From assembly GCF_964204865.1 (NCBI RefSeq), contig NC_135258.1, positions 6,811,001 through 6,875,000 on the forward strand: a stretch of DNA of 64,000 bases, in the 5' to 3' direction. The stretch comes from Styela clava. Its lineage: Eukaryota > Chordata > Ascidiacea > Stolidobranchia > Styelidae. The number at the start of each line of letters is the position of its first letter. Position 1 is the stretch's first letter. Below are positions 57,350-61,816 of this stretch, in pieces. A program made the translations under genes and the position numbers. Under the pieces are notes generated by a model. That model was not told the origin of the DNA, did not search any database, and saw only the letters and a program-made list of their open reading frames with translations.

Positions 57350-57395
57350 AGGGGACACCCGGATTTGAACCAGGGACCTCTCGATCTGCAGTCGA

Positions 57396-57427
<32 letters not shown>

Positions 57428-57866
57428 TTTTTTGTTTTTTCTTTTATTTTTTTGCGGATCAGAATTTTCCAAGGCACAGATCAGTGTCTAATGCCACGTC
57501 ATATCCGTGTCATATCGGTATAACGCTTCATAAGCATGCCACTGCATAAGCAGCAGTCATAAACTTATGGAGGCTTCAGTATCTGCCGCGCCATTGCACA
57601 GCACAAACTTCCACCCCGGGGTTCGGTATACACTGTATGTCACAGCATAACTTTCGCCCAGGGCTTCCGTCTGCACCATGCATAGCATAGCTCAACTTCC
57701 GCCCCCGGCTTCCGTACATACTGCGTGACGCTTAACACGCACACAGCATGACATCCACCGTGAAGCTTCCGATTCATCACGTCCGCTTAATATGTGATGG
57801 TATTTCCGACATAAAAAATGGATAAAATTGTCGCAGTCGAATGCTCTACCACTGAGCTATATCCCC
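57350..57866 (-). pseudogene. trnC: tRNA-Cys (GCA), type A, split by a retroelement
   Basis: 57350-57395 and 57841-57866 together make an exact 72-nt type A gene. A 437-bp insertion (57396-57832) plus an 8-bp duplication (GCAGTCGA at 57388-57395 and 57833-57840) lies in the anticodon loop. In tRNA sense the break follows C35 of the GCA anticodon. Confidence 0.92.
57396..57832 (-). mobile_element. Poly(A)-tailed retroelement fragment in anticodon loop
   Basis: On the minus strand it ends in 26 A with AATAAA just upstream (57444-57449) and has 8-bp flanking duplications, the marks of target-primed reverse transcription. It lies in the same sense as the host tRNA. It has no reading frame and no A/B boxes, so it is not an obvious SINE. 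The middle holds four imperfect repeats of about 43-45 bp (about 57598-57642, 57641-57686, 57684-57727 and 57741-57782) rich in CTTCCG-type motifs, more GC-rich than the host. It is best read as the 3' untranslated end of a 5'-truncated LINE. Confidence 0.85.
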
Positions 57867-58054
57867 ACAGTGCACTACGGGTTCTATATTCAAATAATAT
57901 ACATAGAGAAATGATTTCTGCAAACTTCAAAAAGGGTATTAGAATTAAAGTGTCATCGATTTCAATCCATTCGTTTGCCGTAGAATGTCAAAGTTTAATT
58001 GTTCGAACATTAGAAATACTTGGTATTGAGAATGTTTGATGTGAAAGTCATAAA

Positions 58055-58125
58055 AGGGACACCCGGATTTGAACCAGGGACCTCTCGATCTGCAGTCGAA
58101 TGCTCTACCACTGAGCTATATCCCC
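58055..58125 (-). tRNA. trnC: tRNA-Cys (GCA), type A, 71 nt
   Basis: One C is lost from the 3' acceptor end (AAAAGGGAC on plus). The rest is consensus. A spacer join near 58135 puts it close to the next Trp. Confidence 0.85.
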
Positions 58126-58209
58126 ACAGTGCAAGTGAGTCATGCTTGGCAGAGTCATCAATATTGGGTTTCAAATATATGAACGAAGATTTAATCCGCG
58201 ACACACAGT

Positions 58210-58281
58210 GACTCCATGGCGCAACGGTAGCGCGTCTGACTCCAGATCAGAAGGTTGCGTGTTCAAATCACGTCGGGGTCA
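58210..58281 (+). tRNA. trnW: tRNA-Trp (CCA)
   Basis: One acceptor mismatch (base 7 A, actccatgg). Otherwise consensus. Confidence 0.9.
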
Positions 58282-58530
58282 TTCCTTTATTTTCGGATCA
58301 TTGAATCAGCTTATGAACTGACCAGTTAATAAATAAACCCTTGCGAAAACGACTAATATTCAAAAATGATTTTAATTCTGAGAAATGATTTCTGCAAACT
58401 TCAAAAAGGGTATTAGAATTTTAAAGTGTCATCGATTTCAATCCATTCGTTTGCCGTAGAATGTCAAAGTTTAATTGTTCAAACATTAGAAATACTTGGT
58501 ATTGAGAATGTTTGATGTGAAAGTCATAAA

Positions 58531-58602
58531 AGGGGACACCCGGATTTGAACCAGGGACCTCTCGATCTGCAGTCGAATGCTCTACCACTGAGCTATAACC
58601 CC
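58531..58602 (-). tRNA. trnC: tRNA-Cys (GCA), type A
   Basis: One acceptor change (tataacccc). Terminator present. Confidence 0.92.
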
Positions 58603-59199
58603 AAAGTGCACTACGGGTTCTATATTTAAATAATATACATAACACGCCCTTGGGCATTGTTTAAAGTAATTAACAATCGTTTGTTTAAAACAGGTCTCAA
58701 TTAACATCTATTAAATTTAATTGATGAAATATCACAATTTCATAGCCGTGGTTCAGATAGTTATAGCCACTAAGTTATAGGTCGAAATTGATTAGATATC
58801 TGAGAAACGAATTCTGCAATCTACTGAAATATTTTTATACTTGAAGTGTGATCGATTTCAATTTATAAGCCTGCCGTATAATGTCAAAGTTTATTTGTTT
58901 AAACATTAAATGTTTTCCAAGTATTAACCGCCATATGTGTGCAACAAATAGTTGAAATTGATTAGCCTTCTGCGGAACGAATTCAGCAATCCCCAAACAA
59001 ATTATAAGACAATTAGTTTCATAGTTTTCTATCTATGAGCCTGTCGTAAAATGTCAAAGAATATTTGTTGCAACATTGAAAGATTTATGATGTATTGACC
59101 GCCATGAATGTTCGAAGCGACAGAATCTTTAGATGTCAAAATTACTTGTTGAAACATTAAAAATTTGATTTTGAGAAAGTGTGATGTGAAAGTCATACA

Positions 59200-59271
59200 T
59201 GGGGACACCCGGATTTGAATCAGGGACCTATCGATCTGCAGTCGAATGCTCTACCACTGAGCTATATCCCC
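59200..59271 (-). pseudogene. trnC: tRNA-Cys (GCA), type B
   Basis: Reference type B body. Confidence 0.8.
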
Positions 59272-59434
59272 ACAATCCACAACGGTCCGCTTTTTACCCC
59301 ACGGGCATTAATATAGAAAACCTATTTTATCTGTTAGGAAAGAATCTCTCCTCAATTTATCAGTGCATGCTTGACAGAGTCATCAATATTGGGTTTCAAA
59401 TATATGAACGAAGATTTAATCCGCGACACACAGT

Positions 59435-59506
59435 GACTCCGTGGCGCAACGGTAGCGCGTCTGACTCCAGATCAGAAGCCTGCGTGTTCAAATCACGTCG
59501 GGGTCA
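59435..59506 (+). tRNA. trnW: tRNA-Trp (CCA)
   Basis: Shares the GCCTGC variable region with 43733. Its 3' flank soon joins (ccttgcactacggg) the Cys upstream spacer, so the Cys A of this unit is missing. Confidence 0.95.
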
Positions 59507-60105
59507 TTCCTTGCACTACGGGTTCTATATTCAAATAATATACATAACACGCCCTTGAGCATTGTTTAAAGTAATTAACAATCGTTTGTTTAGAACAGGT
59601 CTTAATTAACATCTATTAAATTTAATTGATGAAATATCACTATTTCATAGCCGTGGTTCAGATAGTTATAGCCACTGAGTTAAAAGTCAAAATTGATTAG
59701 ATATCTGAGAAACGAATTCTGCAATCTACCGAAATATTTTTATACTTGAAGTGTCATCGATTTCAATTTATAAGCCTGCCGTAAAATGTCAAAGTTTATT
59801 TGTTTAAACATTAAATGTTTCACAAAATATTAATCACCACATGTGTTCAACAAATAGTTGAAATTGATTAGCCTTCTGCGGAACGAATTCTGCAATCCCC
59901 AAACAAATTATAAGACAATTAGTGTCATAGTTTTCTATCTATGAGCCTGTCGTAAAATTTCAAAGTATATTTGTTTCAACATTGAAAGATTTATGATGTA
60001 TTGACCGCCATGAATGTTCGAAGCGACAGAATCTTGAGATGTCAAAATTACTTGTTGAAACATTAAAAGTTAGATTTTGAGAAAGTGTGATGTGAAAGTC
60101 ATACA

Positions 60106-60177
60106 AGGGGACACCCGAATTTGAATCAGGGACCTATCGATCTGCAGTCGAATGCTCTATCACTGAGCTATATCCCC
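60106..60177 (-). pseudogene. trnC: tRNA-Cys (GCA), type B
   Basis: Type B with changes in the T stem (acccgaat) and D arm (ctatcac). No TTTT. Confidence 0.82.
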
Positions 60178-60340
60178 ACAATCCACAACGGTCCGCTGTT
60201 TACCCCACGGACATTAATATAGAAAACCTATTTTATCTGTTCGGAAAGAATCTCTCCTCAATTTATCAGTTCATGCTTGACAGAGTCATCAATATTGGGT
60301 TTCAAATATATGAACGAAGATTTAATCCGCGACTCGAAGT

Positions 60341-60372
60341 GACTCCGTGGCGCAACGGTAGCGCGTCTGACT
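60341..60372 (+). pseudogene. trnW: tRNA-Trp 5' half, cut in the anticodon loop
   Basis: A consensus Trp runs through TCTGACT (up to T33) and then changes to retroelement sequence. The 3' half and the spacer up to the next Cys A are missing. Confidence 0.92.
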
Positions 60373-61816
60373 TAAAAGCATGTATTACGGAATTAAAAGT
60401 CAGGTAGATGTAAACGGTAGACTCACGCAGGAAATCGATATAGGGCAAGGAATTAGGCAAGGATGCCCGTTAAGTATGCTTCTCTACGCCATCAATATAG
60501 AGCCCCTAGCAAGATCGGTACAATTAAATGCCAATATACATGGTATCCAACTGGGGAGATACGAGCATAAACTCGATCAGTTTGCTGATGATATCACGTT
60601 CGCAGTTAGAGATCAATTATCTATTACAGAAATCTTTCACGAGCTAGACAATTTCCATTTAGCAACAGGACAAAAAATAAATAAAGATAAGACCGAAATT
60701 CTCTGTATTACAAAAGAATCGCACAATTTAGTGAACAATTCGCCACATGGGAACTACATAAAACGAAACACCATAATACTTGGAATACAATTTGGAAATA
60801 TGGACTTAAACAATATGTGGCAGGTAATCGAAAATAAGATGATACGAACCCTAAATTACGTTAAGCTGCGAAACCTCACCTGGTATGGTAAACTGATATC
60901 AATCAACTCCATGATTATGTCTGTCATAATATTCCATACGAGAGTAAAGAGAATCCCGAAAACGTATATAAAGAAAATCGAGAGTGCGCTGTTTAAGTTC
61001 CTCTGGCACCCGCAAAAGATAGAGGCCATTAGCAGAAAATCGCTACAAAGAATGTGGAACGATGGTGGGATCAATATGATTGATGTTGATGCAAAAATAA
61101 AGGCATGTGCAGTGGAAAAAATGAGATACATCGTGGGTAACGAACCCCTAACTCAATTTTGGCAAATAGAGGCATTATACTCTTTGGGATCCAGAGTCAA
61201 GCAAATCAACAAGGATAGATACACCAACTCAATGCCCCACAGCAATACTATTCCAGAGCAATGGGCATACATCCTCGACATCTATAAAGAATTGAATTTC
61301 TCGCAATCCACCTGGGAGGTTGCAAGACATAAAGACCTGTACATGAAATTGAAGAACAACAGAACAGCCAAAGAAAAACAACAGCTGCTGAATGTGAATT
61401 GGGAAGAAGCTCACCTATTTAACCATGATTATAAAAATAAGTTTACTAACGCGGAACGAATAATCTCGTATCGCATTATAAGAGAGGGGTACATATTCGG
61501 CGATCGCTTGAGGGGAATGTCCCTCAGGTATGATGCTCTCGGAAACTTAAAAATATTAGGCTGCAAATTTTGCAAAGGGCCTGTAGACAATACAGGACAT
61601 ATAATTATAAACTGTAAATCAACGAGGAAATATGCGGTAAAACTTTTAAAAATTCTTAACAGCGTACTAAGCAACTCCATCAAAATAACTCTAAAGGAAA
61701 TATTCTACAATAGTTACAGGGGGCATAACCGAATAGTAGTCACCAAATGTTATGTAATATGGAAAAAGAACTTAATTGGCACCAAAATAAGACTGGATAT
61801 CCAAAATAAATATTTG
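60373..61816 (+). mobile_element. L1/Tx1-type non-LTR retrotransposon fragment in tRNA-Trp
   Basis: 1.44 kb of reverse transcriptase coding sequence begins in the tRNA-Trp anticodon loop and ends at agtcataaaagg, the normal 3' flank of Cys A. No 3' untranslated region, poly(A) or target duplication remains, so a later deletion probably removed the element 3' end, the Trp 3' half and about 240 bp of spacer. Element and tRNA have the same orientation. Clade is judged from the RT motifs. Confidence 0.85.
60374..61816 (+). pseudogene. Reverse transcriptase fragment (L1/Tx1-like ORF2)
   Basis: An open frame of about 480 element codons. Counting from the ATG at 60380, motif B is GIRQGCPLS (residues 24-32) followed by LLYAINIEPL, a pattern typical of the L1 superfamily including Tx1. 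The catalytic FADD is at 68-71, a GQKINKDKTE motif D/E region follows, and a C-terminal C-x2-C-x8-H-x4-C zinc-knuckle-like motif lies at about 395-412. Motif A, earlier RT motifs and the endonuclease are gone, so it cannot be autonomous. The frame is unbroken and runs on by chance for 42 residues through the antisense of tRNA-Cys to a stop at 61945. Confidence 0.85.

Follow-up and report, generated by a model that had tools for sequence, protein, structure and literature searches.

A poly(A)-tailed retro-insertion in the anticodon loop of a Styela clava tRNA-Cys gene, with hints of an L1-type element aiming at that loop

In a tandem array of tRNA-Cys and tRNA-Trp genes of the ascidian Styela clava (about 43-64 kb of the 64,000-nucleotide stretch of contig NC_135258.1 that we analysed, hereafter the window), a 437-bp poly(A)-tailed element splits a tRNA-Cys gene within its anticodon loop. 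This one retro-insertion, splitting one tRNA gene, is the clean result so far. Elsewhere in the same array, a fragment of an L1-type long interspersed element (LINE) starts in the anticodon loop of a tRNA-Trp gene, and a third break, at 54177, falls in the loop of another tRNA-Cys copy. This third break was absent from the earlier note that drew attention to the locus, and it points the same way as the other two, agreeing with the loop being a target. Together, these observations hint at an element that aims at the anticodon loop, and they fall short of proof.

A retro-insertion splits tRNA-Cys between C35 and A36

The split gene, the insert and the unoccupied copy used for comparison are laid out as follows (window positions; tRNA nucleotides, nt, are counted linearly along the gene, and C35, A36 and similar labels are tRNA positions):

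57350-57395, minus strand: 3' half of the interrupted tRNA-Cys gene, linear nt 27-72 with the duplicated bases
57388-57395, minus strand: target-site duplication (TSD) TCGACTGC, 8 bp, 3' copy, at the poly(A) end
57396-57832, minus strand: poly(A)-tailed retro-insert, 437 bp, in the sense of the tRNA-Cys, between C35 and A36
57396-57421, minus strand: uninterrupted run of 26 A closing the insert's 3' end, with an A-rich stretch containing AATAAA before it
57833-57840, minus strand: TSD TCGACTGC, 8 bp, 5' copy, ending at C35
57833-57866, minus strand: 5' half of the interrupted tRNA-Cys gene, linear nt 1-34, ending with C35
63538-63609, minus strand: unoccupied tRNA-Cys in an equivalent local context, the empty-site reference

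Read on the minus strand, the gene is whole as far as C35, where the 437 bp intervene before it continues with TCGACTGC AGATC. Both of its halves are 100% identical to the intact gene. At either end of TCGACTGC the adjoining bases no longer match the intact gene, which fixes the length of the duplication at exactly 8 bp. When the insert and one TCGACTGC are removed in silico, the remaining sequence is identical at 120 of 120 positions to the unoccupied copy starting at 63529. The earlier note had described a poly(A) element at this very bond with an 8-bp duplication, and the exact TSD, the 26 A and the perfect empty site bear it out in full. Having both the poly(A) tail and the flanking TSD of elements of the non-long-terminal-repeat (non-LTR) type, the 437-bp piece is a textbook case of target-primed retrotransposition into the anticodon loop of tRNA-Cys.

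The insert has no open stretch longer than 51 codons in any of the six frames. Its body (57455-57832, minus strand) has a predicted fold of -150 kcal/mol (z = -7.3, with 0 of 100 shuffles as good) that holds nested long stems, and the insert contains an imperfect direct repeat of ~80 nt (local self-alignment score 59, against a maximum of 51 in matched shuffles, with 0 of 200 as good). Tandem Repeats Finder detected nothing in it beyond the T-rich (poly(A)) stretch. The search of the insert against Rfam, at E up to 5, gave no family above the gathering score and only two matches below it: mir-122, and a 16-bit tRNA match that overlaps the host tRNA half. A short interspersed element (SINE) headed by an RNA polymerase III (Pol III) promoter of the tRNA, 5S or 7SL kind has no support from Rfam, and we dropped this candidate. 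The insert may be a 5'-truncated SINE or a SINE with an unknown head, or it may be the 3' untranslated region (UTR) of a LINE or a non-autonomous element. A Dada DNA transposon does not fit the 8-bp TSD and the poly(A), since Dada elements have a TSD of 6-7 bp, DNA-transposon ends and no poly(A). Within its initial 20 bases the insert has one run of four T and one of six; Pol III would presumably halt there, just past the 5' half tRNA.

An L1-type fragment begins in the loop of tRNA-Trp

The second locus has the following parts:

60341-60372, plus strand: 5' half of a tRNA-Trp, linear nt 1-32 (to T33)
60373-61816, plus strand: fragment of an L1-type LINE ORF2, 1444 bp, in the sense of the tRNA-Trp, starting after T33
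61817-61897, minus strand: resumption of the array with 9 bp of flank, then the next tRNA-Cys (61826-61897), entered at its 3' end

Identity to the array persists up to T33 of this tRNA-Trp and ends at 60372, exactly where the fragment had been said to begin. The fragment has 480 open codons (60374-61813) that comprise the second half of a reverse transcriptase (RT), whose FADD is residue 70 of the 480, and, at the C-terminal end, a zinc-knuckle pattern. It matches Pfam RVT_1 (1e-9, profile positions 106-194 of 205) and five L1-type chains (2.2e-23 to 2.4e-22), compared with 5e-5 and 8e-5 for two R2 chains. Judged by these similarities the fragment is L1-type, which bears out the L1 part of the L1/Tx1 label in the earlier note. 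Both pieces also lie in the sense of their tRNA, the insert on the minus strand with tRNA-Cys and the RT fragment on the plus strand with tRNA-Trp. The open frame of 480 codons and the 26-nt pure A run suggest that the events were recent.

A motif and adjacent break points shared by the two genes

The two target genes have in common the 11-nt motif GACT[C/G]CAGATC. The window has 50 occurrences of it, where 0.03 would be expected. As the earlier note implied, the motif belongs to the two targets: 33 of the 50 occurrences are found in tRNA-Cys genes and the other 17 in tRNA-Trp genes; the 3' half that the insert detached from the split gene contributes one to this count. The motif is absent from the window's other tRNA array, made of tRNA-Pro and tRNA-Leu genes (about 1-33.7 kb). 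The third loop break lies in a tRNA-Cys:

54177-54209, minus strand: 5' part of a tRNA-Cys, linear nt 1-33, joined without any insert to spacer of the array

Here the tRNA-Cys is cut after G34 (or after T33, one base being shared, so that a 1-nt microhomology is possible), and its 3' part is lost. Six broken tRNA ends were found in the Cys/Trp array if the 3' half that the split tRNA-Cys retains is left out: four in tRNA-Trp (linear nt 3, 16, 32 and 58) and two in tRNA-Cys (33 and 34). Half of them lie at the adjacent bonds T33/34, G34/35 and C35/36; the other three (linear 3, 16 and 58 of tRNA-Trp) are outside the loop. No anticodon-loop break was found in the Pro/Leu array among the segmentation junctions or the partial tRNA copies listed, which cover pieces of at least 18 nt at E up to 0.05 (shorter or more diverged pieces would escape). 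The only partial copies listed there are 12 tRNA-Pro pieces of nt 1-18.

Does an L1-type element aim at the loop?

We tentatively attribute the tRNA-Cys and tRNA-Trp loop events to an L1-type element whose endonuclease prefers GACT[C/G]CAGATC, a reading in which our confidence is somewhat short of even. At tRNA-Cys the junctions show that an endonuclease nicked between tRNA positions 27 and 28 on the antisense strand (5'-GCAGTCGA/ATGCTC), that a poly(A) RNA was reverse transcribed from the primer so made, and that the sense strand was cut 8 bp away, after C35; the order of the steps is taken from the established mechanism. On this reading the RT fragment in tRNA-Trp would be what is left of another, 5'-truncated insertion into this site, and a later array deletion would have removed the 3' end of the element together with the remaining tRNA-Trp and spacer (278 bp of array in total). 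The insert-free break at 54177 would represent a further cut, repaired without insertion, and the 437-bp piece either the 3' UTR of the L1-type element or a structured non-autonomous passenger.

We favour this attribution on several grounds: the exact 8-bp TSD, the poly(A) and the perfect empty site at tRNA-Cys; the L1-type RT that lies in the same array and the same sense and starts after T33; the motif common to both targets, all 50 occurrences of which are in tRNA-Cys or tRNA-Trp; and the presence of three of the six broken ends in the loop bonds, with none found in the motif-free Pro/Leu array. A broader version, in which a single L1-type family with an endonuclease specific for the motif itself enters the Cys and Trp loops and carries a structured non-autonomous partner there, while unfinished cuts leave half-tRNA scars and reshape the host arrays, is possible and at present doubtful.

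Several results weigh against the attribution. The evidence for targeting amounts to one clean insertion and one partial junction 2 nt off, since the break points in tRNA-Cys (after C35) and tRNA-Trp (after T33) do not coincide. The sites, previously called equivalent, are thus in the same loop and not at an identical position. The insert and the RT fragment have no sequence in common (blastn against the window), and they are unlike in GC content (48% and 37%, respectively). The RT fragment (60373-61816) has no 3' UTR, poly(A), TSD or stop codon at its far end, where the frame continues without a stop into the sequence flanking the next tRNA-Cys, from 61817 on. Target priming would be recognised by a TSD and by a UTR or tail at the 3' end; the fragment has none of these and cannot be scored as an insertion at the tRNA-Trp site. 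Its 5' junction is real, yet it is no proof that the element's own endonuclease inserted it there. Of the two retrotransposon insertions first reported, the one in tRNA-Cys stands, and the one in tRNA-Trp is not a clean one, having neither 3' junction nor TSD and being accompanied by the loss of 278 bp of array. Nor do we take it as evidence that the loop breaks share their sense polarity: the 5' part is kept at all six broken ends, in the loop or out of it, so that polarity is uninformative on the loop.

The three loop bonds make up 0.78% of the Cys/Trp array, and given 24-32 array break ends the probability of at least three ends falling in them is 0.0009-0.002; these ends were counted by hand and the site was picked after looking. 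Given the first two junctions, the probability that the third would fall there is 0.16-0.21, and in 6% of cases six random tRNA breaks would put at least three into one 3-bond stretch or another. Because the site was chosen post hoc, the loop-break statistics are only suggestive.

Neither piece has a second copy in the window (blastn). Relatives of the RT were not found in viral contigs, prokaryote genome contigs, plasmids or phages, where animal LINEs are not expected, and patterns joining poly(A) to a tRNA 3' half were not found in viral contigs or genome contigs, which are not animal-genome collections.

Alternative explanations

The leading alternative is chance: an ordinary, non-specific poly(A) insertion of LINE or SINE type hit one tRNA of an array rich in them, and one of the array's many rearrangements swept up a LINE fragment unrelated to it. 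We consider this almost as likely as the attribution above. Since tRNA genes make up ~19% of the Cys/Trp array, hitting a tRNA is unremarkable by itself. By a hand count, about 14 separate rearrangements have occurred in the array, half of the six broken ends are elsewhere in tRNA-Trp, and another LINE-like RT-coding copy in the window (2292-4538, plus strand, Pfam RVT_1) lies in a spacer of the Pro/Leu array, outside any tRNA. Chance accounts poorly for the concentration of the other three broken ends within one stretch of three bonds, and for the 11-nt motif in both targets.

The RT fragment could also be an endonuclease-independent patch, in which a double-strand break was filled by a LINE cDNA truncated at both ends, with 278 bp lost; the 437-bp insert would be a separate event, and the common factor would be a break-prone loop rather than a LINE target. 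Endonuclease-independent L1 insertions are marked by the lack of TSD and poly(A), by truncation at both ends and by deletion of the target. The RT fragment shows all of these, the deletion being measured against the copy at 63251-63528; given a far end without 3' hallmarks and the loss of 278 bp, it is no clean second insertion and possibly reflects the repair of a broken array. These features equally fit a later deletion within an ordinary insertion. The break at 54177, without insert and with its possible 1-nt microhomology, would suit a break-prone loop too. Such a loop leaves unexplained the clean, TSD-flanked insertion in the very same place, and the Pro/Leu array showed no loop break. 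We regard the patch as unlikely. Finally, misjoined reads in so repetitive an array (93-99.7% identity to one unit) could have created at least one junction, which we judge very improbable, as an exact TSD with poly(A) hardly arises from a misjoin and only the RT or 54177 junctions could be so explained.

If an L1-type element does target the loop, its endonuclease would have settled on a highly conserved multicopy target, exploiting two different tRNA genes via one shared motif. The loop would then join the natural safe-harbour targets open to DNA insertion by retrotransposons, and the turnover of tRNA arrays would be partly a by-product of mobile elements.

The tRNA arrays of the window

ARAGORN called 117 tRNA genes in the window and Rfam 115. 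The Cys/Trp array is built on a repeat unit of 1224 bp (Cys', Trp, Cys), with many rearranged junctions. Two of its copies are labelled tRNA-Ser (gct) by ARAGORN (50905-50978 and 52813-52886, minus strand) and are probably tRNA-Cys genes whose anticodon has changed. In the Pro/Leu array, the 12 tRNA-Pro pieces recur with the Pro/Leu unit (1453-1470, 6835-6852 and so on, the last at 32911-32928). The LINE-like copy at 2292-4538 has a 352-codon frame (2270-3325) whose opening bases belong to the array, ends in short TGATTACTG-like repeats, and is accompanied by the loss of about 14 bp of array. One further reading frame lies between both arrays:

41639-42310, minus strand: C2H2 zinc-finger reading frame, 224 amino acids

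Comparison with known systems

Among the open-licence full texts searched, the portions available describe no LINE, L1-type included, in the anticodon loop; this holds for the corresponding parts of PMC2684134, PMC10886601, PMC5753468 and PMC2912911. The novelty claimed at the outset agrees with this as far as anticodon-loop LINEs are concerned, and was overstated in view of tRNA-specific non-LTR elements (PMC4640811) and Dada (PMC8869645), as the excerpts of these sources present them. LINEs that target tRNA genes (NeSL relatives) and DNA transposons of the anticodon arm (Dada) are, on the same excerpts, already known.

NeSL-1_TV (tRNA-Pro), LIN15_SM (tRNA-Arg) and LIN25_SM (tRNA-Glu) are described in part of PMC4640811 as NeSL-related non-LTR elements specific for tRNA genes. 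They resemble the present case in that non-LTR elements have tRNA genes as targets, and differ in RT group, the RT here being L1-type. TRE5-A of Dictyostelium, also a tRNA-gene-associated non-LTR element, inserts at a distance near its target according to the available part of PMC3706591, that is, outside the tRNA rather than at an inner position as here. Dada DNA transposons occupy specific positions in multicopy RNA genes, some of them around the tRNA anticodon loop (excerpts of PMC8869645 and PMC3706591). They share with the insert the surroundings of the anticodon loop as an insertion site; by the same excerpts, they have a 6-7 bp TSD and the opposite orientation to the tRNA, unlike the 8-bp TSD, sense orientation and poly(A) found here.

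Keno, Mutsu and Dewa are placed in the Tx1 clade. In the zebrafish, these target-specific LINEs insert in U2 (Keno), 5S rRNA (Mutsu) and the tRNA-Leu spacer (Dewa), according to part of PMC3706591, and Tx1 is named among the target-specific groups in part of PMC4640811. They thus have multicopy RNA genes as targets, Dewa beside tRNA-Leu, and the portions at hand describe no anticodon-loop target for them. Human L1 has a relaxed target choice, and in this it differs from an element that would aim at the loop. The RT fragment aligns over residues 8-264 with human LINE-1 ORF2p (PDB 8c8j, 9hdo, 9k6g, 8uw3 and 8sxt), with a best E of 2.2e-23.

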